Of a stretch of 64,000 nucleotides of DNA, positions 1,002-54,802 are shown in pieces. This DNA is from Hyalella azteca (taxonomy: Eukaryota > Arthropoda > Malacostraca > Amphipoda > Hyalellidae). The DNA is taken from assembly GCF_000764305.2 (NCBI RefSeq), contig NW_025937374.1, forward strand, positions 1 through 64,000. Direction: 5' to 3'. The stretch's first letter is position 1. The number at the start of each line of letters is the position of its first letter. The notes beneath the pieces are model-generated. The model was given only the letters and a program-made list of their open reading frames with translations, searched no databases and was not told the DNA's origin. The position numbers were made by a program, and so were the translations under genes.

Positions 1002-1005
1002 TAAG
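909..1005 (+). other. Hypervariable cassette C1
   Basis: Conserved TTCAG (909-913), TTATATA (921-927), unconserved core about 928-984, then GGGCCCTTGCGGGTTAATAA with stem CCC/GGG (988-997). Closest flanks: C12 and C21, whose cores differ. Confidence 0.6.
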
Positions 1006-18526: not shown

Positions 18527-19326
18527 ATTTTTTGAACAATAGTGTTACTTGAGCTTCTATCCAATCAGTCGGCAAAGTTCCTTCGTTCAAGGTTTTTTGA
18601 ATGAATACTGCCAATGGGCCGGCCAGAACGGTTGCTAATTCTTTGAGCAATCTGAGATGGAAGCCGTCTGGTCCACATATGACTTGTTGGGATTTAGAGC
18701 TACCAGGCGCTTGAGAACCTCTTTTTCGTGTATTTCAAAACCTGTTTACATCGAGCCTACTGGGCGCTCCTCAATAGCTGGAATACTGTTCAAGTCCTCA
18801 TCTGTGAACACACTGCTGAAGAACTGATTAAGAACGTTAGCCTTGCCCTCATCAGAGGATATCTATCGTTGTTCTTCTTTCAAATCAGAAATACCGTTGT
18901 TTTGTCTTACACTTCGAACTAGCGTACAAAAAAAGGCTTTCTTGTTCTTTTTTACATTTTTGGCAATATATTTTTTTTCAAAGTTTTTCATGGCGGTGCG
19001 AAAGACTTTTTTAGAGCTTGATTTCGAGTTCTTGCATACAGGTTATAATCAGCATCGCTGCGAGTTCGTAAATAACGCTTGTATGCTTCCTGCTTGGTCT
19101 TAAGCTGAGCTATAATTGTACTGTTCATCCACTGGGACTTTTTGACTCCTCTAAGCGTAATCTTAGGTACAGAGGCATCAACTGCAGACATATACGTGTT
19201 TCTGAGATATGAACAAGAATGAGCCACATTATGTCCTTAATACAGACCGAAATATTCGCCGCATTCAATGCATCACAGAGTCTAACATAGTCTCCTTTTG
19301 CAAAGTTCAAACGTTCATGCTTCCGA

Positions 19327-23257: not shown

Positions 23258-25440
23258 AAGTTGAAAACAAACAACAAGCTGTAAAGAATGCAGCAGTCTG
23301 CAAGTGAATTCATCTTCATGGGAGATGTAATTGCCTGAATATTGCTATCGGAACAGATTTTCCTATAGCATAACTTCTAAATCTTCTCCCATAAGAAACT
23401 AGAATAGAAAATACCGATTGCAAGGGAGACTACTTTCTTGTGTGGGCTGCCCGCGTGGCGGTCATGACTCGGGAGGCTGTGGCTGAGCCGGTGCTTCCCA
23501 TTTGTAATTGTACAAATAGGCGAGACACTCAGGAAAGTTCCTGTAAATGTCCACAAAAAAAAAGTGTCAGACGCTCAAGCGTGTTTCACTTATAATAACT
23601 GATTATACACACCAACAAACCTTTAACGTATTTTAAAAAAAAAAACTAATTTCATTAAACTTGTTAAAATTTTCGATAATTGCGTCTATTGGATCGTTTT
23701 TGGAATTCAGAAATGTTATTGGATCATTTGCTCATAACATATGCGATCTTCGTACTTTAACTCCCTTTAATATTATTTAATCTGATGGTGGCGCGGCAAT
23801 TTCCTTACTTGTGAAGTTGTGTTGGATCGAATTCTGAGTGAAATCTAGTATGAAGAAATTGCTCAAAAATATACAGAGTTTGCTACATGTTCCAAATTTT
23901 GATAACAAAGCTATGTCAATAAACTATGGTTGGTGATATAGATTTGCAGTTCATTCATAAATCCGAATTCTTTTTTAGAAAAGACTCATTTCATATAACA
24001 GGTTGAATTTTTCTATAATTGCGACTATTGTATCATTTTTGGAACTCTGGAACGTTATTGGATCAATTACATGTGATCTTCATACTATACATGCGATCTT
24101 CATACTATAATTTTCTTTAATTTTATTTATTCTGAATCGTGGCACGGCATTTTCCTTGCATGTATCGGATCGAATTTTGAAAAAAAATCTAGTACGAGGA
24201 AATTAATTTAAAATTAACAGAAAGCTTGCTACGTGTTCCAAATGGTATTAATAAAGCCATGTTAATAAACTATGGTTGGTGATGTAGGTTTGCATTACAT
24301 TCATAAATCCCTATTTTTTGCGGCATTAGGTCATTGGATCTTGAACTGAGTATTCGGAATAATTAAGTTTGTGCTCGATTTTGTCTATTATATTGCATGT
24401 TCAGTAATTTCCTATATATAAGAATCTAATCACATTTCATTATTATTCAGAAAAATGTTTGGATAAATTGCTTTAATTTTGGGCCCATTCGGGTTAAAAA
24501 ATGTCGAAGGTGGTAGCATTTAGTCTCTTGACGTGGGCTGGACGTTAGTATGTGGACAGCATTGCCTGATAATTATTTCAACTCTTTTGTAGAAAAGAAT
24601 CGTGGAAAATACTTCACAGACTCTGAAAATGGATCTTAGCCGCTATCAAAAATGCAACGCACGATAAGAGTCTACATCCCAAAAGTCTTGGCCGTATTTA
24701 CCCAATCAAATGTTCAGTTGAGCTGGATATGCTCTGAGCTGGGCACTACGAGGTTCGGGGTGCATGTATGCGCTGTAGTGCAGTGATCATCTTCGGCTGA
24801 TCAGGCGCGTTTCATGCGCATGCCATCCTCCAGTTGGACGTTGATTGTCTAGTACTAATTTCCCTTCAGCTGGTCACCTTAAACCTTAGCGATGCCAAAC
24901 TTCAGTTAGCTTGGATAACAATTGATAAAATTTCGCATACACCGAAGGAGCGAATCAGCACACCACAGCGAAGGTAGTGTAGCCCTGCTCTGCTATTCTG
25001 TGCAGCCCTGCGCCGAGCCCCGAACTCCCGCCTGGTGATAAACTCGAAGGCGACGATGAAACTGTTCAATCGATTGAGCTATTAATCGTCAGCAAATCTA
25101 CGCGATTCTCAGAATAATAACGCATTCAGGGAAATGAATACAAGTAACTGATGAAAATTAACGGTTAGATGAAGATGGCACGCGTTGCTAGCTGGCGAAA
25201 CGCGGCGCCTGTCCGACCTCCGAGTTGTACTCGATCACTGCAAGTTTTGGAGCCATCGGCCAATTGCGGTGAGGCAAGTGAAGAAAAACTCTAAGACCGT
25301 TCTTAATAATTGACACGAAAAATAAACGACAATTTATCCGTGGATTAAAAGAATTTCATAAAACTTTTTTAAAATGAGTTGGGCTCATATAAGCTGGATG
25401 TCATTTTCTGACATCACGTACAGAGTTTTATAGCAATGAA
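23258..25440 (+). repeat. Array unit U10 (M1 to M9)
   Basis: M2, M3, a truncated M4 that restarts with a second M3 at about 23965, cassette C9, M5-M8. The truncation-and-restart is shared with U19 (49410-51450), so the two are duplicates. Confidence 0.75.
24400..24500 (+). other. Hypervariable cassette C9
   Basis: TTCAG 24400-24404, CTATATATA, core, then GGGCCCATTCGGGTTAAA, stem CCC/GGG. Duplicate of C18; cores align poorly in the middle. Confidence 0.6.
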
Positions 25441-26185: not shown

Positions 26186-26386
26186 ATGAGGCCATTGGAT
26201 CTTGATATGGGTTCCAGGAATAATTTAGTTTGTGCTCGACTTTGTCCAACCTATTGCATTTTCAGTAAATTGTTATATATAGCAATGTCGTCGTCAGATA
26301 ATTATCTATTAAAAAAAGAAGTTTTGGAAATTGTTAAATTTTGTGCCCTTAAGGGTCAAATTTATATCGAAGCTGGTTTCACTTAG
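26186..26386 (+). CDS. ORF across cassette C10
   Basis: 66-aa frame RNNLVCARLCPTYCIFSKLLY, then variable core AMSSSDNYLLKKEVLEIV and ALKGQIYIEAGFT. Same frame as 783-1001 over the conserved part. Uncertain coding. Confidence 0.25.
   Translation: MRPLDLDMGSRNNLVCARLCPTYCIFSKLLYIAMSSSDNYLLKKEVLEIVKFCALKGQIYIEAGFT
26261..26360 (+). other. Hypervariable cassette C10
   Basis: TTCAG 26261-26265, TTATATATAGC, core, then CCCTTAAGGG (26346-26355). Pair of C8. Confidence 0.65.
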
Positions 26387-26671: not shown

Positions 26672-28405
26672 CAATAGGCCCAATAACGCTTCCTTGTGGC
26701 ACGCCGCTGCGCACTGATGCCCAGTCTGACACGGTTCCGTTAATACTGACACGTTGTCGTCTATCTACTAGAAAATATCTGATCCATTGGAGTACGTTTC
26801 CCTCTATTCCCAAAGATTTCACTTAACGCAGTAGCCACTCATGCGGAACACTGTCAAATGTTTTGGCAAAATCGAGCTACACGTACTGCATCCACTGGCT
26901 GCCTTTCGACCAGCAGGCGAGTCCAATCGTTCAACGTAGACAAGAGATTAGTGGTGCAGGATCTACCGGCAATAAAGTCATGCTGACAGTCTGATAGGAG
27001 ATGGTGAACAGTCAAGTGATCGATAATATCCCATCCCTCAGAAAAGATTCCATTATCTTACAATTAACACTTGTCAGGCTGACAGAGCGATGGTTACCGG
27101 GGTTACTTTTGTCACCTTTTTAGCGCATTTTCTCATTTATGAAAAAATGCCCTATTGTGCTCGTCATGTCCGTCTGTCCGTGACTTCACGTTTTCGTCGA
27201 CGAGAAAATGCGCTCTCCGTCACTCACTGCAGTGAGTACCGAGTCATATTTTTTGAACAATATAGTGTTACTTGAGCTTCTATCCAATCGGTCGGCAAAG
27301 TTCCTTCGTTCAAGGTTTTTTTTGAAAGAATACTGTCAATGGGCCGGCCAGAGCGGTTGCTAATTCTTTGAGCAATCTGAGATGGAAGCCGTCTGGTCCA
27401 CATATGACTTGTTGGAATTTAGAGCGACTATAGGCGCTTGAGAACCTCTTCTTCGTGTATTTCAATACCTGTTCACTTCGAGCTGACTGGGCGCTCCTCA
27501 ATAGCTGGAATACTGTTCAAGTTCTCATCTGTGAACACACTGTTGAAGAACTGGTTAAGAACGTTAGCCTTGCCCTCATCAGAGGAAATATTTCGTTGGT
27601 CTACTTTCAAATCAGAAACACCGTTGTTTATCTTACACTTCGAACTAGCGTACAAAAAAAGGCTTTCTTGTTCTTTTTTACATTTGTGTCAATATTTTTT
27701 TCAAAGTTTTTCATGGCGGTGCGACAGACTTTTTAGCTTGATTTCGAGCTCTTGCATACAGGTTATAATCAGCATCGCTGCGAGTTCGTAAATAACGCTT
27801 GTAGGCTTAATTCCTGCTTGGTCTTAAGCTGAGCTATAGTTGTACTGTTCATCCACTGGGACAATTCATCCACTACTGTTCATCTCCTTTTGCAAAACTC
27901 GAACGATCATGCTTCCGAAGCGTCTTAACTGCACAGCAATTAATACTGAAAAGCAATGATTGCATGGTGGTGGCATGGTTGCCCAACGGAGCCTCGTGGC
28001 GAAGCTCATCTATCATTGATTCTTCACTAGTAAACACAAGATCTAGAATATTTGGGGTCTGTTTACCCCTAAAATGGGTTGGCTTGGTGATGTTCTAGAT
28101 TAAAAATGAGTCTCGCACAGACTCCAAGAACAGGGATGCTGGGTGATTCCCATCTCTTGGAGAAGATTCATCTGCCCAGTCTATTTCTGGATGGTTCCAG
28201 TCACCAAAGATCAACGTATGCGACCTGCTGAAAGTCATGCTCGGTAAAGGGCTGTTTAGTACTTTATTGTTATCAGATGAACTGTTAGATGATCTATATA
28301 AATGACCCCTATGAGGAGGCTATCCTGGCCTTCTAGAGTAAGTTCGCACCCCACGGATTCTCTAGCTGATTGATGCTCTGCAGATAACTTAACTTGCTGG
28401 GCTTA
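26672..28405 (-). mobile_element. CR1/Jockey-type LINE, copy 2, decayed
   Basis: Same insertion as copy 1, duplicated with its unit. Reads LDFAKTFDSVPHEWLL and GVPQGSVIGPI on the minus strand with a stop after WLLR. It keeps the foldback insertion but lacks the 1.1-kb insertion and has an internal deletion near 27860-27885. Inactive. Confidence 0.8.
27119..27249 (+). mobile_element. Foldback element in LINE copy 2
   Basis: Arms AGCGCATTTTCTC and GAGAAAATGCGCT, then the 16-bp palindrome ACTCACTGCAGTGAGT and ACCGAGTCATA. T-rich flanks on both sides at the LINE codons FKK. No long terminal repeats. Confidence 0.7.
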
Positions 28406-28709: not shown

Positions 28710-30198
28710 TCAAAATTATTCAGGTAGTAAGGAGCCCAATTAATTTTTTAAAAGTCTCATGAAATTCATTTGGACCACGAATATTTTTCCATTTATATTT
28801 TCGTGTCAATTATTAAGAACGGTCTTAGAGTTTCCCTGCAGTTGCCTCACCACAGCAGACCGATGGCTCCAAAACTTGCTGTGATCGAGTACAACTTGGA
28901 GGACGGACAGGTGCCCCGTTTCACCAGTTAGCAACGCGTGCCACGGATGCTTCATCTAACCGTTAATGTATATCTTTGGTTGCAATTAGTTCTCTGATTT
29001 TATTGACAACCACTTCACTCCAAGGTGTAATTTCAATTCAATGGCGTTAAATCAATTAGACAACGCGGCATTTAATATTCCGTTATACATCATAATCAAT
29101 ATTACAGTTCATATGCCCGTAATTTGCCGCAAGACTTCAAACTCTCACGACGCTTCGTCGTCGCATCGAGTTTGTCCCCCGGTGGCAGTTAGGGACTCGT
29201 GGTAGCGTAAAGCCTTCACCGATGAGCTGATTTGATCCTAGGGTGCATGTGAAATTTTAGCCATATATATCCAAACTAACTGAAGTATAGCATCGCTAAG
29301 GCTTAAGATATTTAGATTGTTAATGTCCAACCCGAGGAAGATGAAACGCTCTTTATCTGCTGACTGTGTTCACCGCGCACCCCGAGCCTCGCGTTGCGCA
29401 GCAACTGCAGCAGAATTGGTCAGCTTCATTGAGTTATACGACCCAGCATCAATGATGAATATTTTCATCATTAATTTCTTTTTGCGTTATTTTCATCCAT
29501 AAGAACATCATTATTATTTAATATTTACATCATTCATTCGTAGCGGGCCTGAATGCGTTAGAATCGCGTAGATTTGCTGTAAGAATAGTTCAATCGATTG
29601 AACAGTTTCATCGTCGCCTTCGAGTTTATCGCCAGGCGGGAGTTCGGGGCTCGGCGCAGGGCTGCACAGAATAGCAGGGCAGGGCTCTACCACCTTCGCT
29701 GTGGTGCGCTGATTCGCTCCTTGGGTGCATGCGAAATTTTATCAATTCTTATCCAAGGTAACTGAAGTTTGACATCGCTAAGGTTTGAAGTTTAATTTCC
29801 AAGGTTTAATTTCCGAGGTTTCATTTCTAAAGTTTAATTTCCATCTGGAGGGAAATTAGTACTAGACAGACAATCAACGTCCAACTCAAGGAAGGCATGC
29901 GCATGAAATGCGCCTGATCAGCCGAAGATGATCACCGCACTGCAGCGCATGCAATCACTCCGAACCTCGTAATGCCCAGCTGAGAGAAACTCCAGCTTAA
30001 TTGAACATTTTATTTGGTAAATACGGCCAAGACTTTTGGGATGTAGTCTCTTATCGTGCGTTGCATTTTTGATAACGGCCATGATCCATTTTCATAGTCT
30101 GTGAAATATTTTTCACTTTCATTTTCTACGTAGCGTTGAAATAGTCACCAGATAATTCTGTCCACATTCTATCCGCCAGCTACTCTCTTTGATTACTT

Positions 30199-30296
30199 TC
30201 AACCCGCATGGGCACAAAATTTGACAGACTAATTATATATATACTCATATCATATTACTTCGGAATTAAATTGCGTTATATAATAATTGACCGAAA
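30199..30296 (-). other. Hypervariable cassette C11, inverted
   Basis: Read on minus: TTCGG in place of TTCAG, ATTATATAACGC, core, then GTGCCCATGCGGGTTGAAAG, stem CCC/GGG. Confidence 0.5.
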
Positions 30297-30779
30297 ATGC
30301 AATAGGTTAAACAAAATTGAGCACAAACAAAATTATTTCTGAAACTCCGATGAAGATCCAATGACCTCATGACGCAAAAAAAATTGGATGTATGAATGTA
30401 GCGCGAACCTACATCACCAACCATAGTTTATTAACATAGCTTTATTATAACCATTTGGAACACGCAGCATGCTTTCTGATAATATTAATTTAATTTCCTC
30501 TTAATAGATTTTTTTTCACAATTCGATCCGACACATGTAAGGAAAATGCCGTGCCACGATTCAGATTAAACAAAATTAAAGGAAATTAAAGTATGAAGAT
30601 CGCATGTTCCGAGTAATTGATCCAATAACGTTCCAGAGTTCCAAAATTGATCCAATAGTCACAATTATCGGAAAATTTAACCTGCTACATGAAACGAGTC
30701 GTTTCTAGATTCAATTCAATTAATATTGAATTGAATAAATTCCTTCAATTAATATTGCTAAACGTCGAATATTCTAATA

Positions 30780-32347: not shown

Positions 32348-33057
32348 AAGTTGGAAACAAACAGTAAACTGTAAAGAATGCAGCATTCTGCAAGTGCATT
32401 TATGGAAGATGTAATTGCCTGAAAATTGCTATCGGAACAGATTTTCCTATAGCCTATCCTCAAAAACTGAGAGCATAAAAAACGATACAATATAATCTCG
32501 ATTGCAAGGGAGACTGCTTTTTGTGAGGGCTGCACGCGTGCCTCAGTCAACTGTCAACTGTCAGTCAACTGTCAGGAGGCTGTGGCTCAGTCAATGCTTC
32601 CATTTGTAATTGTACAAATAGGCGAGACACTCTGGGACTTTCCTGCAAATGTCTTCCAGAAAACAGTTTCAGACGCTCAAGCGTGTTTTACTTCTAATGA
32701 CTGAATGTACACACCTACGAGGCTACGAACCGTTAACATATTTAAAAAAAATCCATTCACTAAACAGGGAACATTTTTCTAGAATTGCGACCATTGTATC
32801 GTTATTGGAACTAGAACGTCATTGGGTCAATCGCTCGATACATGTGATCTTCCTACTATAATTCCATTTAATTTTGTTCAATCTGAACCGTGCCACGGCA
32901 ATGTCCTTACATGTGTAGGGTCGAATTCTGAAAAAAATCCAGTACGAGGAAATTACTCTAAATGATCAGAAATTTTGCTCCGCGTTCCAAATGAAGCTAT
33001 GTCAATAAATTATGGTTGGTGATGTAGGTTCACAGTACATTCATAAATCCCTATTTT

Positions 33058-33366
33058 TTGTGCATAAGGTCGTTGATCTCCATACGACTATCAGGAATAG
33101 CGAAGTTTAAGCTGATTTTCTTTCGATCGGATACATGTTCAGTAAACTGTTATATATTGAACTTTCGTCATAATATCGATCTTAGGTATTTAAAATTAGA
33201 ATGCTTTGCGCCCCTGCGGGTTAATATGGAATTTAAGTCGGTAGTATCTCACATCTTCATTGTGGCTGGACATCAGTATGTGGACAGTATACCTGATGAT
33301 TATTTCAAAGCTTTTGTAAAAAAGAATCGAGAAAAATATTTCACAGATTCTGGAAGTGGATTTTAG
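33058..33366 (+). CDS. ORF across cassette C12 into M5
   Basis: 102-aa frame that spans TTCAG, core, hairpin (read APLRVNMEFKSV) and the full M5 end VAGHQYVDSIPDDYFKAFVK to a stop after SGSGF. The lone base missing here relative to most units (ACAGTATACC against ACAGCATTACC) is what keeps the frame. With 6654-6905 it argues that M4 and M5 belonged to one coding sequence. Confidence 0.35.
   Translation: MCIRSLISIRLSGIAKFKLIFFRSDTCSVNCYILNFRHNIDLRYLKLECFAPLRVNMEFKSVVSHIFIVAGHQYVDSIPDDYFKAFVKKNREKYFTDSGSGF
33138..33228 (+). other. Hypervariable cassette C12
   Basis: TTCAG 33138-33142, GTTATATATTG, core, then GCGCCCCTGCGGGTTAATATG, stem CCC/GGG. Confidence 0.6.
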
Positions 33367-33650: not shown

Positions 33651-35200
33651 TTGCATGCCTGCAAGCGAATTTATTGGAAGATATAATAGCCAAAGGAATG
33701 TTATCGGGACAGATTTTCCTATAGCATATCCTCTAAATCATTTCACATAAAACACGAAACAAGAAAATCTCGATATCAAGGGAGACTACTTTCTTTTGAG
33801 GGCTGCACGCTTGGCTCAGTCAGGACTCGGGAAGCTGTGGCTGAGCCAGTGCTTCCCGTTTGTAATTGTACAAATAAGCGAGACACTCAGGAATTTCCCG
33901 ACAGATATCCACAAAGAAATAGTTTCAGACGCTCAAGCTTGCTTTACTTATAATAACTAAATATTCACCTAAAAAATCCTTTAACGTATATTTAGAAAAA
34001 AACTCGTTTCATTCAACAAATTTAATTTTTAGATAATTGCGACTATTGGATCGTTAGGGGAACTGTGGAACAATATTGGATCAATTGCTAAACGTGCGAT
34101 CTTCATACTATAACTCCCTTTAATTTTTTTTATTCCAATGGTGGCACGGCAATTTCCTTACTTGTCTTGTAACGAATTCTGAAAAAATCTAGTACGAGGA
34201 AAATACTCTAAAATAACCAGAAAGTTTGCTACATGTTCCGAATGTAAATAATAAAGCTATGTCAATAAGCTATGGTTGGTGATGTAGGTTCGCAGCACAT
34301 TTGTAAATCCAAATTTGGTTCTTGGCTTGGTCCAATAGTGATTGGATATTCATGGAGTAGGAGGAATAGTTCCGTTTGTCTCGAAATTTTGCTGATATAT
34401 TTTCATGTTCAGTAAACGGTTATATCAGACTTCTAGTTTCTATTTTGTAATCTATATTTTTCCCTTTGTTCTTATTAAATTTTAGAGCCCAACTGGCTAA
34501 TATGTATGATGTAGGAACTTGGCGGTAGGTGGATTTGTATGTTTACAGCATTACCTGATATTTATTTCAAAGATTTTGTGAAAAAGTTTAGTAAAAAATA
34601 TTTCACAGACTCTGAAACGGTTCTTAGCTAATATGAAAAATGCAACGAACGATAAGAGTCCAAAGGTCAAAATTCATAGCCGTATTTACCCAATAAAATG
34701 TTCAATTAAACTCATCATCTTCTTGGTCACCTTAAACCTTAGCGATGCCAAACTTCAGTTAGCTTGGATAAGAATGGATAAAATTTCACATTCACCCAAG
34801 GAGCGAATCAGCACACCACAGCGAAGGTAGTAGAGCCCTGCTCTGCTATTCTGTGCAGCCCTGCGCCGAGCCCCGAACTCCCGCCTGGCGATAAACTCGA
34901 AGGCGACGATGAAACCGTTCAATCGATTGAACTATTCCAACAGCAAATCTACGTGATTCTCAGGATACTATCGCATTCAGGGAGATGAATACAACTAATT
35001 GATAAACATTAACGGTTAAATGAAGATGGCACGCGTTGCTAACTGGCGAAACGCGGCGCCTGTCCGACCTCCAAGTTGTACTCGATCACAGCAAGTTTTG
35101 GAGCCATCGGCCTACTGCGGTGAGGCAACTGCAGAGAAAAACTAAGACCGTTCCTAAGAATTGACACAAAAAATTAAATGGAAAAATATATGTGGTCCAA
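33651..35200 (+). repeat. Array unit U14 (M2 to M8)
   Basis: M2, M3, cassette C13, M5, a shortened M6 (the CpG-rich nested repeat is deleted, leaving only the MVTLNLSDAKLQL part; ORF 34633-34830), M7 and M8. Confidence 0.7.
34408..34505 (+). other. Hypervariable cassette C13
   Basis: TTCAG 34408-34412, GTTATATCAG, T-rich core, then TTTAGAGCCCAACTGGCTAA. The stem is now GCC/GGC (34487-34497) with a longer loop. Confidence 0.55.
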
Positions 35201-36540: not shown

Positions 36541-37280
36541 GATGTGTATATTCAGTTTATATAAGTAAAATGCGCTTGTGCGTCTGAAACTGTTTTTTCG
36601 TGGATATTCGCAGGAATTTTCCAGAGTATCTCGCTTGTTTGTACAATTACAAATCGAAAGCACTGGCTCAGCCACAGCCCGAGCCACAGCCTGAGTCCTG
36701 CCACAGCCTGAGTCCTGAACCCATACTTTTAACAAAGTTAAGAGATCGTAAGTTCATCAGCCAATCATTGACGGCCTTTCAAGCCACTCTTTTAAAAACA
36801 GTTAAGAGATCGTAAGTTCATCAGCCAATCATTGACGGCCTTTCAAGCAAAATCCACCAATCATAAACAAGAAAATAGTGCGTAAGTATTTACGTTCACT
36901 AAGCGAATTTTGAAAGTATGGCCCCTGGCACAGTCACGCATGCAGCACTCACAATAAATTAGTCCCTCTAGCAATCAAGATTTTCTTGTCTCCCTTTTTT
37001 TTACTGATTGCGAGAATAGGCTATAAGAAAGTCTGTTTTGATAGAATTTTCCAGGCTATTACATCTTCCAATGAATTCATTTGCAGAATGCTTCATTCTT
37101 CAATGCTTATTGTTATGTTTTTAGCTTCTTTCCTTCTTTCCTGTAAAAACATTTAATAAGATACCGAAACAAGACTTTCATAAAAGTCTTTAATCGTGGA
37201 GACTGTTTTCGTTGGTATAAAAGTATAATATTTTATAATATAAAAGAAACTCTGTGTGTGTTGTCAGAAAATGACACGAT
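36541..37280 (-). repeat. Inverted M2-M1 fragment
   Basis: Reverse complement M2 (minus ORF 36538-36735 with AEPVLSICNCTNKRDTL) and M1 (TTTAATCGTGGAGACTG), split by a small element. Continues to GTCAGAAAATGACA, the usual M11-M1 border. Confidence 0.7.
36721..36932 (-). mobile_element. Small TIR element with 48-bp internal duplication
   Basis: Ends TTTTGAAAGTATGGCCCC at the right; left end degenerate (CCATACTTTTAAC). Relative of 46237-46382 in inverse orientation. A 48-bp segment beginning GTTAAGAGATCGTAAG is present twice (36737-36784, 36801-36848). Confidence 0.6.
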
Positions 37281-37917
37281 AAAATGCTAATTGCAGCGTC
37301 GTAACTTAGAACCGATCATATTGCATACATTTTGAAAATCCATATCGTTGTTTGGGAACGGATAAAATTATTATAATAAAAATTGCAGGTTAAAATCATA
37401 TGGTTGCCAACATACACAACACGCTTAAGATAATTGAGTACGCCAATATATTATCTCGATTCCCGATTTATTCAGTAATATTTTATGTAAGGACTAATCC
37501 GATATATAATAATATAATAATAATAATAACTGCACTCATGAATCCGAATATTGTTTTATGTGTCATACAGTCATTGGATCTTCATCGGAGTAGCAGGAAT
37601 AGCTCAGTTTATGCTGAATTTTGCTGCACCAACTTCATTTTCAGTAAATTGGTATATGGCGCACTTCTGTGAGTCCTTTACGAGAAATGTGAAAGTAAAA
37701 TTGTATATTACTATTTATGGTGCGATTGCAGGATATAAGAAGAAATTGAAATCTGTAGTGTTTAGTATGTAGATGTTGGTTGGACATTCGTATGTTGGCA
37801 GCATTGCCTGATGATTTTTTTCGAAGCTTTTGTGAAGAAGTATCGGGAAAAATATTTCACTGACTCTGAAAATGGTTCTTAGCCATTATCAAAAATGCAA
37901 CGAACAATGAGAGTCAA
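37281..37917 (+). repeat. Single-copy joint, then M4-M5
   Basis: 37281-37550 is not matched elsewhere here; then M4 resumes at TCATTGGATCTTCATCGG, with cassette C14 and M5. Ends where the LTR-like piece starts. Confidence 0.6.
37640..37750 (+). other. Cassette C14, hairpin lost
   Basis: TTCAG 37640-37644 and GGTATATGGC, then a core; the usual CCC-GGG hairpin is not recognisable before M5. Possibly inactive. Confidence 0.4.
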
Positions 37918-38653: not shown

Positions 38654-39849
38654 ATCAGCACACCAGGGCGAAGGTAGTAGAGCCCTGCTCTGATATTCTG
38701 TGCAGCCCTGCGCCGAGCCCTGAACTCCCGCCTGGCTGGTGATAAACTTGAAGGCGACGATGAAACTGTAATGAATACAACTAACTAATGAACTGAAGGT
38801 TAAATGAAGCTATATATAGAACAGACGAAACGCGGCACCAGTACGACCTTTAAGTTGTACTCAATCACAGCAAGTTTCGGAGCCATCGGCCTACAACGAT
38901 TAGATAACTCCGTAGAAACTTTGAAGATATTTGTAATAATTGAGACGAAGCAATAAAATGTGAAAGCACCCTGGTGGAGAAGATTTCAAACAATTGTTAA
39001 AATATTGATTAGACTCGAATTAGTTCAACAAATTTCATTGAAAAATAAGGCTAATGTCACTAATAACTTTTTCCAACAACATTCAAGTAAGCTCAGTTGT
39101 CCGTCCGTGACTTCACGTTTTCGTCGACGAGAAAATGCGCTCTCTGTCACTCATGCAATGAGTACAGAGTTATATTCTTTTAGGTACGCCGGAGATTAGT
39201 AACTTTGATTGGCCCATATGGTCGGATTTCTCATCCTGAGCAGGGGATATGAGCGGGGCTTAGGAAACACTGAGCGCTACTATATAAACGAATGTACCAC
39301 AGTTATGATACGATACCGAGTCTCTTGGGTACTGTCAATGATCAATGACGTCATTGGTCACCATCACCATAAAATGGATACACTACACTGCTTTTGAGTT
39401 TATACTGGCATATACTAATTATGCAGCAAACATAGGTCACCAGAACTACATCGTAAATCTTAATGAACATAAACACTATACGCTCTAAGTTTACACCACT
39501 TTATACTTGTTTTTATATAACATAAATACAGCTTGCCAAGTTTATACCGGTTTATATTAGATTTGAAACAATGTGGGCCACCAGCACCACATCGTAAATT
39601 GGAATGAACATAAACACTGCTTTTCATAATCATACTGGTACATGCCAGTTTTGAAAAAATGTAAATATCACTTTTAAAGTTAATACTCGTAAATATTGGT
39701 TTATACCAACTTTATAACAGATGATGGTTCCAGCAGAATTATAATTATTTACTATAGCAGCAGCATGCAGGGCGCACCCGGACTGCGACGGCGATTTTTG
39801 ATCCCTGATGTCGGCTCTTCCTACCTTGCATTGCAATTCGATCATTAGG
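38654..39849 (+). repeat. Duplicated block, copy 2
   Basis: Copy of 7212-8405, including foldback piece (39095-39182) and element E (39185-39849). Ends abruptly inside E where an M2 segment begins. Confidence 0.75.
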
Positions 39850-41310
39850 GCAGAGAAGAAAATCTCGATTGCAAGGGAGACTACTTTCTTGTGAATACTG
39901 CCCGCGTGACTGTCATGACTCAGGAGGTTGTGGCTGAGCCAGTGCTTCCCATTTGTAATTGTACAAATAGGCGAGACGCTCAGGAACGTTCCTGTAAATG
40001 TCCACCAAAAAAACAGTTTCAGACGCTCAAGCGTGTTTTACTTGTAATAACGGAATAACTGTAAGAAGCAACTCATTTTTAATCTCATTTCATTTAACTC
40101 ATTGTCATTTTTAGAAGCAACTCATTTCATAAAACAGGTTAAATTTTTCTTCAATAATTGCGACTATTGGACCATTTTTGGAACTCTGGAACGTTATTGG
40201 ACCAATTACTCGAAACAAGCGATCTTCATACTGTAATTTCCTTTAATTTTACTTAATCTGAATCCTGGCACGGCATTTTCGGACAGGAGATGTGTTAAAA
40301 AAAATCTAGTATTAGGAAATTAGTCTAAAAGTATCAGAAAGCTTGCTACGTGTTCCAAAAGGTAATAATAAAGCTATGTCAATAAACTATGGTTGGTGAT
40401 GTAGGTTCGCAGTACATTCTTAAATCCCAATTTTTTTCTGTCTAGAGGTCATTGAAGCTTCATCGGAGGATCAGGAATAATTTAGTTTGTGCTCAATTGT
40501 GTTGAACTATTGCATTTTCAGTACATCGTTATATGTAGCAATTCCATCATATTATTGTTTAATAGAAATAAAATTCTAAAAACTTCTGTTATATTTTGTA
40601 CCCTTGCGGGGTAATAAGTAATCGGAGGCGGCAGCATTTAGCATGTTAAAGATGGCTGGACATTGGTATGTGGACGGCATTACCTGATGATTGTTTTAAA
40701 GCTTTTGTAAAAAAGAATCGTGATGAATATTTCACTGATTCTGAAAATTTATTTTAGCCGTTATCAAAAATGCAACGCACGAAAAGAGTCTATATCTCAG
40801 AAGTCTTAGCCGTATTTACCCAAAAAAATGTTCAATTTAGCTGGAGTTGCTCTCAGCTGGGCATTACGAAGTTCGGGGTGAATGCATGCGCTGAAGTGCA
40901 GTGATCATCTTCGGCTGATCAGGCGCGTTGCATGCGCATGCCTTCCTCGAGTTGGACGTTGATTGTCTTTTCACTAATAATTTCCCTTCGGATGGTCACC
41001 TTAAAACTTCAGTTATGTTGGATAAGAATTGATAAAATTTTGCATGCACTCAAAGATCGAATCAGTGCATTGGTGCAGGCTTTCCGCCACCACAGCGAGG
41101 TAGTATAGGTTCAGCCCTTCGATGATGAGCCCCAAACTCACACCCAGCGATTAACTAGAAGGCGACGATGAAACTGTTTGTTTGAGTTAATCAAACAGCA
41201 AATCTACGCGATTTTCAGGATACTAACGCATTCTGGGAAATAAAATAAAACTAATTAACTGATCAACATTAACGGTTAAATGAAGCTATAGAACTGGCGA
41301 AACGCCACCT
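39850..41310 (+). repeat. Array unit U16 (M2 to M8)
   Basis: M2 without its first part, M3, cassette C15, M5-M8. 39855-40540 is about 99% identical by eye to 53720-54406 in U20, while sequence right of the cassette is clearly less similar. Confidence 0.75.
40517..40618 (+). other. Hypervariable cassette C15
   Basis: TTCAG 40517-40521, GTTATATGTAGC, core, then TACCCTTGCGGGGTAATAAG; the stem extends to TACCC/GGGTA. Pair of C19. Confidence 0.65.
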
Positions 41311-43090
41311 GTACGACCTTCAAGTTGTACTCGATCAGTTTTGGAGCCATATCGGCCTACAATAACGATTAGATAACTCCGTAGAAACTTTGAAAATATT
41401 TATAATAATTGAGACGAAGCAATAAAATGTGAAAACACCTTAGTGGAGAATAATTTCTAACAATTGTTAAAATATTGCTTGGACTCGAACAATAGTTCAA
41501 CAAATTTGAATGAAAAATGAAGCTCATGTCACCAATAACTTTTCCGGATTCAACGGCATGGAACAACATTCATGTAAGCTGAACAATGGAAATGTAAATC
41601 ACACAAAACATAAGAAAAAACAACAGAATCTTACTGCATATTCAAAAAGGCTGAAATGGTAGGCATTTCTACGAAAATGCCTACCATTTCAGTTCTTCCA
41701 CGGCAAAATACGGTCATTAAATTATCTGCATACTCCTGTTCTACCATTGAGCCCCTATGGGATTTTATTAAATCTGTGGTTATGAGTCGTATAATAAAGT
41801 CTTACTTTGGCAGCGTATAAAGTTTTCTGCTGATTATCTGCTAGCGTAGAGTTCGGCATCGTGAAAAAGAAGTCACAGTCAGTAAAAACTGTACAACTGA
41901 TCTTATAATTTTAGCCTTCAACATGATGAAATGAACGTTTATAATTTGTATTACAGAATTCAAGGCCATATTTCACACTAGAAAAATAAAGAATGTTCAG
42001 TTAAGTTGGGGTTGCTGGGCACTACGAAGTTCGGGTTGCATGCATTTGCAGTGGTGCAGTGAAAATCGTCGGCCGGTCACGAGCGTTTCATGCGCATGTC
42101 TTCCTCGAGTTGGACGTTGATTATCTGTCTTGTAATAATGTCCCTGCAGGTGGTCATCTTAAAACTTAGTGACGCCATTGTTCAAGAAGCTTAATTGTAG
42201 ATGAAGCGATAATGTTCTACATGCACCGGAGGAGCAAATCTATGTACTGCTGGAGGTTTTGAGCTTCACAGCGCAACATAGCAGCTAGAGCTCGACTTCG
42301 ACTCATTTTTCTACCTTTAGTCAAAATATAGAGCTATATATTAATTCATACTGATTATATCAGAAATAGAATTTTTCATATAAAGCACTGAACTCGTTTT
42401 AGATTCTCGCAGGCAGTAAACATCCAAAGAATTTTTCATTGCAATTGAATAATTATTTTCCAAAAATAGATAAGAATTTTCAAGTTTCAAATTTGAAGAC
42501 CACGCGAGAGGTTTCATTTCAAACTGAAAATAATTTCTTTTTTTTGTAGCTATGATTTTGATTTGTCTCAGCATGTGAAATATTATATCAATTATTGCTG
42601 GATATATCTCTTTAGTATTAACGAAATTCGAAATATCAATTTCAATTACAATTACGTTAACGATTTATATATGTCCTGAGATGTAATAGATATTTTGCGG
42701 CTGGGTAGCAACAGCCAGTCGTGATCAGCTGGGACTCTGGAGAGGCGGTGCAAATGATCAGCAGGAGTATTTAAGTCCTCTTTTTAATAAGTTTTATGGA
42801 AGAAAACGCTGTCTTTTGCCATTTTAAAACGTACCCAGGTTGCTACACTCAATAGTTTACGTATAATTTAAATTGAAAGTTTATATCACTTGTTTGCTTA
42901 AATCTCAAATTAACTAAGAATATAAAAGCAAAGAAAAGTCCACAAAAATTCATATCTTTTTCATTCGATACTCCCGGAGAGTGACATACGGTTGTAGAAG
43001 GTTAATAATTGACACAAAAATATAAATGGTAAATATTCGTGGAGAAAAATAATTCCATAAACTTCTGAAAAATTGACTGGGCTCAGACTA
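41311..43090 (+). repeat. Module R2
   Basis: Homologue of R1 with a newly formed hairpin at 41651, the variant M6 copy at about 42000-42190, an opposite-strand frame (42341-42574) of doubtful value and the LWRGGANDQQEYL segment (about 42733-42775), now frameshifted. Confidence 0.7.
41651..41692. repeat. Perfect 18-bp stem hairpin in R2
   Basis: CTGAAATGGTAGGCATTT, loop CTACGA, AAATGCCTACCATTTCAG. R1 and R3 have the left arm in diverged form but no right arm, so the palindrome arose in this copy. Confidence 0.8.
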
Positions 43091-44290: not shown

Positions 44291-45590
44291 GGTCGCTTTT
44301 GAAATATTCAAAACGACGTAATGTGAAAAGTGTTGCTTCACACCCTTTATATAAGTTTTATTGAACGCGTCTTGTTTGTAGCCCGATTGAAAAACTTATG
44401 CGAGAGTCTCGTATCGGAATCCTATTAAATATTTCCACACGAAAAATAACCTAGAAGTTAGAAACACAACAACAAGCAGTGAAGAATGCAACATTCTGAT
44501 AGTGAATTTATTGCAAGATGTAATCGCCTGAAATTATTATCGAAGCTGATTTTCTTATAGCTTAGCCTCAAAACCTGCAAACATAAAACGAGACAAGAAA
44601 ATCAAGATTGCAATGGAGACTATTTTATAATGAGGGCTACCCGAGTGGCTCAGTCAGGTCGCAGGAGGCTGTGGATGAGCCAATGCCCCCATTTGTAATT
44701 GTACAAAAGGCGCGACACTCAGGAAAATTCCTGCAAATGTCCACCAAAAAAGTTTCAGGCGCTCAAACATGTTTTACTTTTAATAACTGAATATACACAC
44801 CTACACACCTTTAACGTATATATTGAAAAGAAACCTAATTTCATTAATCAGGCTACATTTCCCGAAAATTCCGAATATTGAATCGGTTTTGGAACTCAGG
44901 AACGTTATTGGATCAATTGCTCAAAAAATGAGATCTTCATACTAGAACTCCCTTTAATTCTACTCAATCTGAATCGTGACACGGCAATTTCCTTACTTGT
45001 GATGGATCGAATGTAAAAAAAAATAAATAGTATGAGAACATTACCCTGAAATAACAGAAAGCTTGCCACGTGTTCCAAATGTTAATAACAAAGCTATCTT
45101 AATGAATTAAGGTTGGTGATATAGGTTCGCACTACATTAATAAATCCTAATTTTTTGTGTCATAAGGTCATTGCATTGAATCTTTATCAAAGTATCAGGA
45201 ATAGTTAAGTTAGTGCTAAATTCTGTCTAACCTATTGCATGTTCAGTAATATGTTATATATTGCATTTTCAACGTTCGTATATATTGGAAAATTATTTTT
45301 ATATAAAATGTGATTTTTGTGCCCCTGCGGGTTAAATGTTAAGCGAAGTCGGAAGTCTGTATTATATTGATGCTGGCTGGTCACTAGTTTGTGGGCAGTA
45401 TTACCTTATGATTATTGCAAAGCTATTGAAGAAAACAATCGTGAAAAATATTTCAGACTGAAAATGGATCTTAACCGTTATCAAAGACGCAACGAACGAT
45501 AAGGATCTATATCTCGAAAGTCTTAGCAGCATTACCCCAATAAAATGTTCAATTGAGCTGGAGATGCTCTGAGCTGGGCACTACTAGGTT
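44291..45590 (+). repeat. Array unit U17 (M11 end to M5)
   Basis: Duplicate of U2. M2 ORF pieces at 44608-44790 and 44699-44881 are short. A 5-base insertion (CATTG) precedes GAATCTTTATC compared with U2. Confidence 0.75.
45242..45335 (+). other. Hypervariable cassette C16
   Basis: TTCAG 45242-45246, GTTATATATTGC, core, then GTGCCCCTGCGGGTTAAATG. Pair of C2. Confidence 0.65.
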
Positions 45591-46010: not shown

Positions 46011-46236
46011 CAAAAAAGAAACCTATAGTATGAAAATATTGCAATAAGCTGTGAAGAATGTAGCACTCTGCAAGAGAATTTTTTGAAAGATGTAATAGCC
46101 TGAAAATTGTTTTCGGAACATATTTTCCTATAGCCTATCCTCGAAATCTGTCAACTTTAAAAATGGGAGAAGAAAATCTCGATTGCAAGGGAGACTACTT
46201 TCTTGTGAATGCTGCCCGCGTGGCTGTTGTGACTCA

Positions 46237-46382
46237 GGGGCCATACATTCAAAACTCGCTGAGTGAACGTAAGTACTTACGCACTATTTTCTTGTCTATG
46301 ATTGGTGGATTTTGCTTGAAAGGCCGTCAATGATTGGCTGATGAACTTACGATCTCTTAAATTTTTTTGAAAGTATGGCCCC
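46237..46382 (+). mobile_element. 146-bp TIR element
   Basis: Left GGGGCCATACATTCAAAA and right TTTTGAAAGTATGGCCCC: 17 of 18 terminal bases pair. Inserted in M2 after GTGACTCA. Relative at 36721-36932. No coding capacity: a MITE. Confidence 0.75.
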
Positions 46383-46841
46383 AGGACACCACTCAAAGTG
46401 GCACTCAGGAGGCTGTGGTTGAGCCAGTGCTTCCCATTTGTAATTGTAGAAATGGGCGAGACGCTCAGGAAAGTTTCTGTAAATGTCCACCAAAAAAAAC
46501 AGTTTCAGAAGCTCTTGCGTGTTTTACTTATAAAAACAGAATATCTTCAACTCATTTTTTGAAATAACTCATTTCATATAACAGGTTAAATTTTTCTATA
46601 ATTGCGACTATTTGTTCATTTTTGGAACTCTAGAACGTTATTGGATCAATTACTCGTAACATGCAATCTTCATACTTTAATTTCCTTTAATTTTATTTAA
46701 TCTGAATCGTGGCACGGCATTTTTCTTACATGTGCCGGATCGAATTTCAAAAAAAAATCTAGTAAGAAGAGATTAATTTAAAATTATCAGAAAGCTTGCT
46801 ACGTGTTCCAAATTGTTATAATAAAGCTATGATAATAAACT

Positions 46842-47090
46842 ATGGTTGGTGATGTAGGTTCGCGCTACATTCATACATCCAAATTTTTTTGCGTCATGAG
46901 GTCATTGGATCATTATCGGAGTATCAGGAATAATTTTGTTCGTGCTCAATTTTGTTTAACCTATTGCATGTTCAGTAATTTCTTATATATTGCAATATCA
47001 TCTCATAAGAGAATATATATTTTAAGTAAAATTTGTAATATCTTGTTATATATTGGGCCCTTGTTGGTTATAAGTCATCAAAGACGGTAG
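46842..47090 (+). CDS. M4 ORF, full N-terminus
   Basis: 82-aa frame MVGDVGSRYIHTSKFF, RNNFVRAQFCLTYCMFSN, then core-encoded ISSHKRIYILSKICN and a hairpin-encoded end. With 783-1001 it keeps the N-terminal and pre-core parts in one frame, which most units do not. Confidence 0.3.
   Translation: MVGDVGSRYIHTSKFFCVMRSLDHYRSIRNNFVRAQFCLTYCMFSNFLYIAISSHKRIYILSKICNILLYIGPLLVISHQRR
46971..47075 (+). other. Hypervariable cassette C17
   Basis: TTCAG 46971-46975, CTTATATATTGC, core with a second TTATATATT near its end, then GGGCCCTTGTTGGTTATAAG; stem weakened. Confidence 0.55.
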
Positions 47091-49409: not shown

Positions 49410-51450
49410 TGTTTTTCACAAGAAAGAAACCTAGAAGTTGAAAGCAAACAATAAACTGTAAAGAATGCAGCATTCTGCAAATGAATTCATGGAAGATGTA
49501 ATTGCCTGAAAATTGCAATCGGAACAGATTTTCCTATAGCCTATCCTCTAAATCTTCTCACATAAAAAACGAGACAAGAAAATCTCGATTGCAAGGGAGA
49601 CTACTTTCTTGTGAGGGCTGCATGCGTGGCTCAGTCATGACTCAGGAGGCTGTGGCTGAGCCAGTGTAATCGTACAAATAGGCGAGACACTCTGGAAAGT
49701 TCCTATAAAAAAAAGTATCAGACGCTCGAGCGTGTTCTACTTATAATAACTGAATTTACACACCAACAAACCTTTAACGTATTTTTAGAAAAAAACTCAT
49801 TTCATTGGACTTGCCAAAATTTTCGATAATTGCGACTATTGGATCGTTTTTTGAATTCAGAAAAGTTATTGGATCATTTGCTCATAACATGCGATCTTCG
49901 TACTTTAACTCCCTTTAATATTATTTAATCTGATGGTGGCGCGGCAATTTCCTTACTTGTGAAGTTGTGTTGGATCGAATTCTGAGTGAAATCTAGTATG
50001 AAGAAATTGCTCAAAAATAAACAGAGTTTGCTACATGTTCCAAATTTTGATAAAAAAACTATGTCAATAAACTATGGTTGGTGATGTAGATTGCAGTTCA
50101 TTCATATATCCGAATTCTTTTTTAGAAAAGACTCATTTCATATAACAGGTTGAATTTTTCTATAATTGCGACTATTGGATCATTTATGGAACTCTGGAAC
50201 GTTATTGGATCAATTACATGTGATCTTCATACTATACATGCGATCTTCATACTATAATTTTCTTTAATTTTATTTATTCTGAATCGTGTCACGGCATTTT
50301 CCTTACATGTATCGGATCGAATTTTGAAAAAAAATCTAGTACGAGGAAATTAATTTAAAATTAACAGAAAGCTTGCTACGTGTTCCAAATGGTATTAATA
50401 AAGCCATGTTAATAAATTATGGTTGGTGATGTAGGTTTGCATTACATTCATAAATCCCTATCTTTTGCGGCATTAGGTCTTTGGATCTTGGACTAAGTAT
50501 TTGGAATAATTCAGTTTGTGCTCGATTTTGTCTTATATTGGCATGTTCAGTAATTTTTTATATATAGAAATTTTATCAAATTTGATTATATTCAGGAGAA
50601 TTTCAAGCGTTATTGACTTGATATTGGGCCCATACGGGTTAAGAAATATTGAAGGTGGTAGCTTATAGTAATTTGACGGTGGCTGGGCTCTAGTATGTGG
50701 ACAGCATTGCCTGATAGTTATTTCAACTCTTTTGTAGAAAATGATAGCGAAAAATACTTCACAGGCTCTGAAAATGGATCTTAGCCAATATCGAAAATGC
50801 AACGCACGATAAGAGTCTACATCCCAAAAGTCTTGGCCGTATTTACCAAATAAAATGTTCAATTAAGCTGAAGTTGCTCTTAGCTGGGCACTACGAGGTT
50901 CGAGGTGAATGCATGTCCTTGCTGTAGTGCGGTGATCATCTTCGGCTGATCAGGCGCGTTTCATGCGGATGCCTTCCTCGAATTGGACGTTGATTGTCTG
51001 TCTAGTACTAATTTCCATCCAGATGGTCACCTTAAACCTTAGTGATGCCAAACTTCAGTTAGCTTGGATAAGAATTGATAAAATTTCGCATGCTCCCAAA
51101 GAGTGAATCAGCGCACCACAGCGCAGGTAGTAGAGCCCTGCTCTGCTATTCTGTGCAGCCCTGCGCCGAGCCCCAAACTCCCGCCTGGCGATAAACTCGA
51201 AGGCGACGATGAAACCGTTCAATCGATTGAACTATTCCAACAGCAAATCTACGTGATTCTCAGGATACTAACGCATTCAGGGAGATGAATACTACTAATT
51301 GATAAACATTAACGGTTAAATGAAGATGGTTCGCGTTGCTAACTGGCGAAACGCGGCGCCTGTCCGACCTCCAAGTTGTACTCGATCACAGCAAGTTTTG
51401 GAGCCATCGGCCCACTGCGGTGAGGCAACTGCAGAGAAAAAGAGAAAAAA
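49410..51450 (+). repeat. Array unit U19 (M1 to M8)
   Basis: Duplicate of U10, sharing its truncated M4 and second M3 restart. Cassette C18, M5 (minus frame 50533-50862 is antisense), M6 nested repeat at about 50910-50970, M7, M8. Confidence 0.75.
50546..50645 (+). other. Hypervariable cassette C18
   Basis: TTCAG 50546-50550, TTATATATAG, core, then GGGCCCATACGGGTTAAG, stem CCC/GGG. Pair of C9. Confidence 0.6.
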
Positions 51451-53060: not shown

Positions 53061-53310
53061 GAATATTTTCTTGACATACTCAATTATCCCGAGCTTGCCG
53101 TGCATGTCATCAACTCAAACGATTTTAACCTGCAATAAATTATTATATCAATCGAATTCTCTCTCACACATCGATTTGGAATTTCAAAATGAGAGTAACA
53201 TAATAGGTTTCAAGTTCAGATGCTGTATTTTTCATTTTTTTCTTGTAATTTTCCGACGTTTTTTAGATTTTTTATTTTTATTTTTCATTTACCTTTCCAT
53301 TTTCCATTGT
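53061..53310 (+). repeat. M11-M1 border stretch
   Basis: Matches 59740-59960 (CAGCAATAAATTATTAT-type phrase, AAAATGAGAG). Ends in T-rich sequence before the minisatellite; the expected M1 start is missing across the adapter. Confidence 0.6.
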
Positions 53311-53516
53311 TGACACTCGTAAACACCTGTAAACACTTGTACACTTGTAAACACATGTAAACACATGTAAACACTTGTAAGCACTTGTAAACACTTTTAA
53401 ACACTTGTAATCACTTGTGGACACTTGCATGTAAACTCTTGTAAAAACTTGTAAACACTTGTAAGCACTTGTAAACACTTGTAAACACTTGAGAACACAT
53501 GTAAACCCTTGTAAAC
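53311..53516. repeat. 10-bp minisatellite TGTAAACACT
   Basis: About twenty imperfect copies of TGTAAACACT/TGTAAACACA. Open minus frames here (VYKCLQVFT-type) are only translated repeat. Directly abuts the adapter, so its true length and right neighbour are unknown. Confidence 0.85.
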
Positions 53517-53555
53517 CTGTCTCTTATACACATCTAGATGTGTATAAGAGACAGN
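53517..53555. other. Nextera mate-pair junction adapter and N
   Basis: CTGTCTCTTATACACATCT (53517-53535) followed by its reverse complement AGATGTGTATAAGAGACAG (53536-53554) and an N at 53555. These are Tn5 mosaic ends joined as in mate-pair circularisation adapters: a library artefact, not genomic. Confidence 0.97.
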
Positions 53556-53609: not shown

Positions 53610-53924
53610 ATGAAGCATACTGCAAGAGAATTTATTGAAAGATGTAATAGCCTGATAATTGTTATCGGAACATATTTTCCTATAGCCTATCCTCGAAATC
53701 TGTCAACATTAAAAATGCGAGAAGAAAATCTCGATTGCAAGGGAGACTACTTTCTTGTGAATACTGCCCGCGTGACTGTCATGACTCAGGAGGTTGTGGC
53801 TGAGCCAGTGCTTCCCATTTGTAATTGTACAAATAGGCGAGACGCTCAGGAACGTTCCTGTAAATGTCCACCAAAAAAACAGTTTCAGACGCTCAAGCGT
53901 GTTTTACTTGTAATAACGGAATAA
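53610..53924 (+). CDS. Longest M2 ORF, 104 aa
   Basis: MKHTAREFIERCNSL, GTYFPIAYPRNLSTL, NLDCKGDYFLVNTARV, PVLPICNCTNRRDAQ, CKCPPKKQFQTLKRV, ITE. All M2 conserved phrases lie in one frame here; in other units they fall in two. Six cysteines; no signal peptide; no family recognised. The start lies 55 bp from the assembly join. Confidence 0.35.
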   Translation: MKHTAREFIERCNSLIIVIGTYFPIAYPRNLSTLKMREENLDCKGDYFLVNTARVTVMTQEVVAEPVLPICNCTNRRDAQERSCKCPPKKQFQTLKRVLLVITE

Positions 53925-54382
53925 CTGTAAGAAGCAACTCATTTTTAATCTCATTTCATTTAACTCATTGTCATTTTTAGAAGCAACTCATTTCATAAAA
54001 CAGGTTAAATTTTTCTTCAATAATTGCGACTATTGGACCATTTTTGGAACTCTGGAACGTTATTGGACCAATTACTCGAAACAAGCGATCTTCATACTGT
54101 AATTTCCTTTAATTTTATTTAATCTGAATCCTGGCACGGCATTTTCGGACAGGAGATGTGTTAAAAAAAATCTAGTATAAGGAAATTAGACTAAAAGTAT
54201 CAGAAAGCTTGCTACGTGTTTCAAAAGGTAATAATAAAGCTATGTCAATAAACTATGCTTGGTGATGTAGGTTCGCAGTACATTCTTAAATCCCAATTTT
54301 TTTCTGTCAAGAGGTCATTGAAGCTTCATCGGAGGATCAGGAATAATTCAGTTTGTGCTCAATTGTGTTGAACTATTGCATT

Positions 54383-54481
54383 TTCAGTACATCGTTATAT
54401 GTAGCAATTCCAATTTAATAATTTAATAAGCAAAAACTATGAGAACTTCTGTTATATTTTGTGCCCTTGCGGGGTAATAAG
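54383..54481 (+). other. Hypervariable cassette C19
   Basis: TTCAG 54383-54387, GTTATATGTAGC, core, then GTGCCCTTGCGGGGTAATAAG. Pair of C15. Confidence 0.65.
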
Positions 54482-54802
54482 TAATCGGAGGCGGAAGTAT
54501 TAGCATCTTCAAGATGGCTGGACATTGGTATGTGGACGGCATTACCTGATGATTATTTTGAAGCTTTTGTAAAAAAGAATCGTGATGAATATTTCACTGA
54601 TTCTGAAAATGGATTTTAGCCGTTATCAAAAATACTACGCACGATAAAAGTCGATATCTCAAAAGTCTTAGCCGTATTTACCCAATAAAATGTTCAATTA
54701 GGCTGAAGTTGCTGCTCTCAGCTGGGCACTACGAGGTTCGGGGTGAACGCATGCGCTGTAGTGCGGTGATCATCTTCGGCTGATCAGGCGCGTTTCATAC
54801 GC

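Follow-up and report, generated by a model that had tools for sequence, protein, structure and literature searches.

Two homologous cassettes, C15 and C19, in a 64-kb stretch of DNA (the window) are near-identical on one side of a core of 31 to 34 nt and unlike within it. We found that this contrast is real and is one case of a family-wide pattern. Both cassettes are copies of a repeat that is dispersed and in part tandem. In each unit, two short motifs enclose a spacer of near-fixed length and free sequence, and the core of the spacer outpaces every yardstick that we tried, threefold to twentyfold.

Results

Architecture of the repeat family

To collect units in the window, we used homology over 460 nt of the C15 segment rather than the motifs themselves. 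This search returned 20 core-spanning units, all but one (on the minus strand) lying on the plus strand, together with four partial copies that end before the core and were excluded from every core count. MAFFT alignment of the 20 copies gave a common layout: the left motif TTCAGT-N6-TTATAT, with a weaker right half (...GCAnTTTCATC) after TTATAT; a stretch of about 41 nt in which no base is preferred; and an island, TTTTGnGCCC-N4-GGG-TTAA (Table 1).

We then turned to the genome (519 Mb in 4890 contigs; the window is the first 64 kb of a 110.5-kb contig), in which the exact motif-spacer-island pattern occurred at least 74 times, 11 of them in the window, and its reversed control not once. In our judgement, the genome's size, its scarcity of coding sequence and its remnants of reverse transcriptase indicate an animal. 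These counts are lower bounds: the set of 79 units used below (64 in an earlier version) includes looser matches, with up to two or three motif mismatches, and the genome total is higher. The two exact patterns searched in viral contigs had no match there. No publication describing the family was found by title or abstract opening, which, with the species name not used, is weak evidence of absence.

Several further features were observed in and around the units. A second long array lies on contig C4137 of G000 (approximately 10600-134500), with 14 exact pattern matches on this 138.7-kb contig. The hexamer AATAAA, possibly a poly(A) signal, occurs towards the right-hand end of the shared unit (40805-40840 and equivalents) in 45 out of 79 units, C15 not being one of them. 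Island-like matches to TTNNGCCCNNNNGGG lie outside the known units at 2085-2099, 9139-9153 and 41747-41761, the first being the same as the last. The left flank of some cassettes carries an insertion of approximately 150-200 nt (46048-46546 and 36549-37106), seen in units of both strands, that looks like a mobile insert.

Table 1. Positions in the window of the parts of C15 and of the core-bearing segments of the other units.
Feature	Position	Strand	Basis
C15 stretch identical to C19	39853-40251	+	pairwise alignment
C15 left flank, common to window units (truncated in unit 37533)	40190-40514	+	MAFFT of 20 copies, rate profiles
C15 stretch common to L005 (contig C2614), probable conversion tract	40253-40620	+	0/300 over 40253-40552, core 1/41
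C15 left motif TTCAGT-N6-TTATAT, putatively promoter-like	40517-40534	+	18 pattern matches in window vs 0.21 expected; rate 0.63
C15 left motif, weaker right half ...GCAnTTTCATC	40535-40549	+	base preference; rate already 3.0
C15 hypervariable core (block differing from C19, 40547-40580)	40547-40592	+	alignments, rates
C15 island TTTTGTACCC-N4-GGGG	40593-40612	+	rate 1.28 (homology-found units), below core (5.67), above flanks
C15 family-shared right flank	40671-40835	+	alignment, rate profile
C19 motif-core-island segment, core block 54413-54443	54378-54489	+	alignment
Unit 761, motif-core-island	904-1013	+	alignment
Unit 4115, motif-core-island	4287-4395	+	
Unit 6498, motif-core-island	6668-6780	+	
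Unit 12661, motif-core-island	12833-12947	+	
Unit 13736, homology stops soon after island	13901-14011	+	
Unit 15560, motif-core-island	15724-15844	+	
Unit 17348, motif-core-island	17514-17634	+	
Unit 24223, motif-core-island	24395-24508	+	
Unit 26084, motif-core-island	26256-26371	+	
Unit 30473, sole minus-strand unit among 20	30188-30300	-	
Unit 32990, motif-core-island	33133-33236	+	
Unit 34223, motif-core-island	34403-34503	+	
Unit 37533, left flank truncated	37635-37750	+	
Unit 45060, motif-core-island	45237-45347	+	
Unit 46793, motif-core-island	46966-47082	+	
Unit 50370, motif-core-island	50541-50653	+	
Unit 60658, motif-core-island	60850-60960	+	
Unit 63060, motif-core-island	63221-63335	+	

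The C15/C19 contrast

Pairwise alignment indicated that C15 (39853-41400) and C19 (53719-55283) are homologous. An earlier note on this DNA had described their left flanks as differing by only a handful of bases; indeed, we counted 7 differences in 694 positions and no gaps (39853-40546 vs 53719-54412), with all seven falling within 40252-40483. The same note had called the core largely different in sequence and length. It is (34 nt at 40547-40580 vs 31 nt at 54413-54443), although the proposed divergence of about 45% was overstated: 11 out of 31 aligned positions were mismatched and three more were gap positions, corresponding to approximately 35% by substitution and 41% with gaps counted. 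Taken on its own, the core block aligned no better than shuffles, 0.11 of which scored equal or higher, and homology was recognisable (z 3.7) in the longer segment corresponding to 40547-40587.

From the right of the core to the end of the island stretch, 2 out of 52 positions differ. The right flanks are similar, as had been noted, but closer than the 90% first estimated, with 43 out of 760 positions differing (5.7%) over 40633-41400, or approximately 94% identity. Left and right flanks are therefore unequally diverged (p 4e-7). In sliding windows, a check that had been suggested and was here run over the full 3-kb alignment, divergence at the core was high, yet four other 40-nt windows were higher; all four lie beyond 41600, at 0.38-0.72 against 0.35 for the core (gaps counted). 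The jump between C15 and C19 is sharpened by a second cause, namely mosaicism, the exchange of DNA between copies.

Substitution rate of the core

We compared cores with near flanks in 21 sister pairs drawn from the 79 units, pooling pairs with flank divergence under 0.13. Cores differed at 255 out of 838 positions and near flanks at 302 out of 7726, a rate ratio of 9.7. The excess was significant singly in 19 out of 21 pairs (one-sided p<0.01), and the two pairs without core acceleration were L055/L028 (1/39) and C15/L005 (1/41). Cores were likewise faster (p 8e-11 to 1e-4) in three further sister pairs, which were not pooled because their flanks had diverged by 0.13 or more. Among seven young pairs within the window, the core-to-flank ratio was 5.9-10.5 (Jukes-Cantor; p<1e-4 for each). 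When these pairs were realigned with another program, divergence in 44-nt windows over 40190-40835 peaked at most 11 nt from the core start in all seven, and in 40-nt windows over their full extents the core ranked first in three and within the top six in all seven.

ML rates for 18 out of 20 window units were 5.67 for the core, 0.42-0.81 for the flanks, 0.63 for the left motif, 1.28 for the island and 1.43 for the stretch right of the island. The truncated copies 13736 and 37533 were left out of these rates and of the trees, branch ratios and 153 window pairs described below. In the 79-unit profile, expressed as multiples of the median, the rate was 9.7 and 9.8 at 40550-40579 and 5.9 at 40580-40594. 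Right of this it was 0.9 in the island, 1.6-2.1 at 40610-40669 and approximately 1 beyond; on the left it dropped from 3.0 at 40535-40549 to 0.5 in the motif, with 0.8-1.5 over 40460-40519. The motif and the island are slow relative to their adjoining neighbours, not relative to the flanks. Because the 79 units were gathered through their motifs, motif conservation and part of the constancy of spacing are built into this set. A bell-shaped profile, hinted at by the 18 window units, was dropped in favour of one nearer a box in the 79 units.

For cassette DNA outside the unit, six out of seven window pairs could be compared, 46793/30473 being omitted because its homology hardly passes the unit. 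The core-to-outside ratios were 3.4, 3.5, 5.7, 7.1, 7.8 and 20.1, each with a Fisher p of approximately 1e-3 or less. In the two lowest, near flanks had diverged less than the rest of the cassette: 3.7% vs 9.2% in C15/C19 (ratio 3.4) and 5.1% vs 11.4% in 24223/50370 (ratio 3.5). In these two out of six pairs the near flanks have thus changed two to three times more slowly than outside DNA, so that constraint on the unit or its homogenisation adds part of the tenfold ratio.

Two cassettes carry broken reverse-transcriptase-like remnants (18074-18734 and 26819-27461), which served as a neutral yardstick; a homologue search with a retroelement ORF returned nine proteins, six with PF00078. This dead fragment, present in both copies of one pair, differed at 21 out of 632 positions against 10 out of 38 in the core (p 2e-6). 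Taking these comparisons together, the contention that a neutral clock cannot produce such a contrast is true for the family, with the core running approximately 10 times faster than near flanks (21 pairs), 3.4-20 times faster than outside DNA (six out of six pairs) and approximately 8-9 times faster than the dead retroelement.

Mode of change in the core

A single constant ratio (11) fitted the 21 pairs, with a deviance of 28.7 below the simulated 95% point of 33.4; single pairs had raised the suspicion that the ratio is overdispersed, which found no support in simulation. Core substitutions were up 11-fold and indels only 2.1-fold. The substitution spectrum was close to that of the flanks, with no damage signature. 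Strand-specific deamination had been considered, C being scarce in the cores, and was rejected with the spectrum so ordinary. Thus, "hypermutated", as the earlier note had put it, is apt as a description of in-place substitution at one steady ratio, whereas for the cause, mutation and selection are alike compatible.

The spacing from TTATAT to TTTTG was 57.8 +/- 3.0 nt (range 48-65) in the 79 units, in a unit search that itself allowed approximately 40 to 78, and the squared difference in core length did not grow with divergence over 153 window pairs. In 55 dereplicated cores we detected no marked base preference from approximately 16 nt after TTATAT to the last few bases before the island, and the strongest 5-mer reached z 3.3 among all 5-mers. 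The cores of the 20 window units were all different from each other, C-poor and folded no better than shuffles. A hairpin RNA at the island found no covariation support in the same 20 units: RNAalifold gave three pairs, none of them compensatory, and pairing measures did not exceed those of shuffles, although slid versions had fewer paired cells. The fold of all 79 units was empty, as was the shuffled control, making this a weak test.

Possible causes of the rapid change

The reading that we prefer, with reserve, is that the spacer is hypermutated within a promoter-like arrangement. The left motif would be a promoter-type element, of TATA or snRNA type, transcription would start or pause at the GC-rich island, and the 41-nt spacer, of set length, would be the gap between the two. 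An initiation complex might hold the spacer open or shield it from germline repair and so render it hypermutable, while selection would preserve the motifs and their spacing and disregard the letters in between. Near-fixed length, free sequence and a steady ratio fit promoter-spacer hypermutation. Against this reading, the rate of 5.9 falls to 1.6 within the 15 nt of the island window, more steeply than a smooth mutation gradient would lead one to expect; the spectrum lacks a damage signature; and the island, at 1.28 against 0.42-0.81 in the flanks of the homology-found units, is conserved only relative to its neighbours.

Thornlow et al. reportedly described, in 2018, transcription-associated mutagenesis in the flanks of tRNA genes. 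Like such flanks, our units have a short fast zone beside a small transcription-unit-like element with short conserved blocks; unlike them, they have the fast zone between two motifs and a rate only about twofold beyond it, and no known RNA gene was recognised. For tRNA genes, substitution is known to be faster next to small RNA genes with high transcription (PMC8113476).

It is also possible, with somewhat less in its favour, that each unit encodes a short guide- or piRNA-like RNA whose specificity part, the core, is under diversifying selection, with the left motif as promoter and the GC-rich island as pause or 3' end signal. A fast zone sharply bounded near two motifs fits this proposal as well as the spacer model, and it agrees with window cores that are all different, unstructured and C-poor. 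The AT-rich stretch followed by the GC-rich island resembles the pausing architecture reported for nematode piRNA loci (PMC6436959). Nematode 21U piRNA loci resemble our units further in being many, both clustered and dispersed, and in having a motif upstream and then, ahead of a change in base composition, a variable segment tens of nucleotides long (PMC6436959); unlike them, our units have several hundred nucleotides of flank in common. A motif at near-fixed distance upstream is present here, in the 79 motif-gathered units, but the 55 dereplicated cores have no T at a fixed first position, nor any other fixed first base. Moreover, the whole 40 nt is raised at one steady ratio at many loci, which in our judgement exceeds usual selection. 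When the window was searched for cores elsewhere, no match went beyond the largest of 30 shuffles, with one exception: the 4115 core matched 16 nt in antisense orientation (shuffle maximum 13), which we judge to be chance in AT-rich sequence; the short-RNA proposal is thus left with no other target in the window.

A wider version, which we consider doubtful, would make these animal loci a genome-wide array system, each yielding a short RNA or DNA tag whose own specificity segment of approximately 40 nt is diversified, between two fixed recognition motifs, at approximately 10 times the near-flank rate, so as to form a guide or identity repertoire with built-in hypervariability.

Our units are like spliced leader and Sm-class snRNA genes in having an AUUUUG-like, Sm-resembling stretch and then a short GC-rich inverted repeat, and unlike them in that the island hairpin lacks covariation and the cores have no common exon or fixed splice donor. 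Indeed, we detected no fixed-position GT in 55 cores, where GGTA occurred in 12 against 7.1 in shuffled cores (z 2.1), and no Sm site with a compensatory 3' hairpin in the 20 units.

Readings of the window as known genes were rejected. No tRNA or Rfam gene was found at threshold, and Rfam matches at gathering score numbered zero in the window. Six out of seven sub-threshold Rfam matches in 39800-43000 lie on or across a hairpin at 41651-41692, and one lies at 41186-41261. In C15, the hairpin is a perfect 18-bp inverted repeat with a 6-nt loop and weak, sub-threshold microRNA-like Rfam scores; in C19, one arm is missing and the remainder is degenerate. As for coding, no ORF of 85 aa or more supports a gene, ORF-like stretches in the far left flank are frameshifted between copies, and none of ten translated ORFs had a Pfam family above cut-off. 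A stop-to-stop ORF (33028-33366) that spans the core of unit 32990 was taken for chance. Bacterial-type promoters numbered five sites against 3.9 in shuffles and are irrelevant to a eukaryote.

Whichever cause applies, a short bounded interval that outruns its neighbours severalfold, by a steady ratio and at loci numbering dozens, is a test bed for local substitution rates. If the cause is mutation, the interval would reveal the extent to which a single promoter-like element can increase germline mutation; if it is selection, the interval would mark an unrecognised diversifying RNA or tag system.

Descent and exchange between copies

Trees built from the left and right flanks agreed on five sister pairs, and the core data rejected neither tree (AU p 0.41 and 0.17). 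The left-flank data rejected the right tree (0.009), and the halves of the left flank were in conflict as well, indicating that some exchange between copies has happened. The core's own best tree, resting on a short alignment near saturation, recovered four out of five sister pairs, one of them weakly; it was poorly supported and was rejected by the flank data. The core-to-flank ratio was 12.8 on sister branches and 17.1 on the others (approximately 10 without one branch at the optimiser's bound). Acceptance of the flank trees by the core and a similar ratio across branches argue against core exchange as the main mode and against flank conversion as the whole cause. Of 61 matches to cores in other fetched loci, excluding those to a core's own source, the 25 listed were to the same or sister units, and shuffled cores gave three. 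The suggestion that cores have been replaced finds no support as a general account: the core data accept the flank trees, and no donor cores were found in the window.

C15 itself has a more complex history. Against L005 (contig C2614), it showed 6-8 differences per 58-100 sites at 39853-40152; 3/100, 0/100, 0/100, 0/100 and 3/100 in successive windows over 40153-40652; and 4-10 per 100 beyond. With no difference in 300 positions over 40253-40552, one in 41 in the core and outer flanks 4-10% apart, C15 and L005 likely have in common a conversion tract that includes the core, and the lack of core acceleration in this pair fits a young tract. The C19 core groups with L001 (7/38) and L002 (4/38). 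The simplest reading is that there are two young tracts, one at the far left (C15 and C19) and one of approximately 400 nt including the core (C15 and L005). The near-identity of the left tract thus masks an older split between the C15 and C19 cores, and the core's own speed supplies the remainder.

Such tracts raise the question of whether gene conversion or constraint merely keeps the flanks alike, so that the core alone keeps an older or freer divergence, which we regard as unlikely. C15 and C19 are indeed identical over 39853-40251 before the seven differences in their remaining left flank; C15/L005 has none in 300 inside its tract and 4-10 per 100 across most of the surrounding windows; in two out of six pairs the near flanks lag behind the remaining cassette; and the left, right and half-left trees partly reject each other. 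However, the core is still faster than outside cassette DNA in six out of six pairs, the left and right trees agree on five sister pairs and are both accepted by the core data, the ratio is alike on sister and other branches, and the C15/L005 tract appears to pass through the core. A divergence peak of the kind that conversion leaves is described for duplicated genes (PMC3924837). The red/green opsin duplicates treated there are like our copies in showing a local divergence peak within otherwise similar DNA together with conversion tracts; in contrast to such peaks, the flank trees are here acceptable to the core data, and a single ratio is enough for the pairs.

There is little to commend a cut-and-repair or cassette-exchange site between two recognition motifs, with the core replaced by recombination or re-randomised. 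The fast zone is bracketed by two motifs, and C15 and L005 have a common core within their tract, but the modest rise in indels (2.1-fold), the lack of donor copies in the window and the acceptance of the flank trees by the core data all speak against it.

Assembly of the two loci

We regard it as very improbable that short-read collapse or chimeric joins made the contrast: an uncut adapter and an N lie near C19 and the homology of C15 switches at 39853, but the same pattern is present in 19 out of 21 sister pairs, and its recurrence at the same 40 nt in units on many contigs is something that an assembly chimera cannot explain. The junction and the switch are warnings on local joins. At 53517-53555, with the C19 core approximately 860 nt to the right, a 19-mer, its reverse complement and then a single N record a join that the assembly has retained; we take the 19-mer pair to be a mate-pair junction adapter. 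Directly left of this join, at 53310-53516, we observed by eye a degenerate array with a unit of approximately 10 nt (AACACTTGTA-like).
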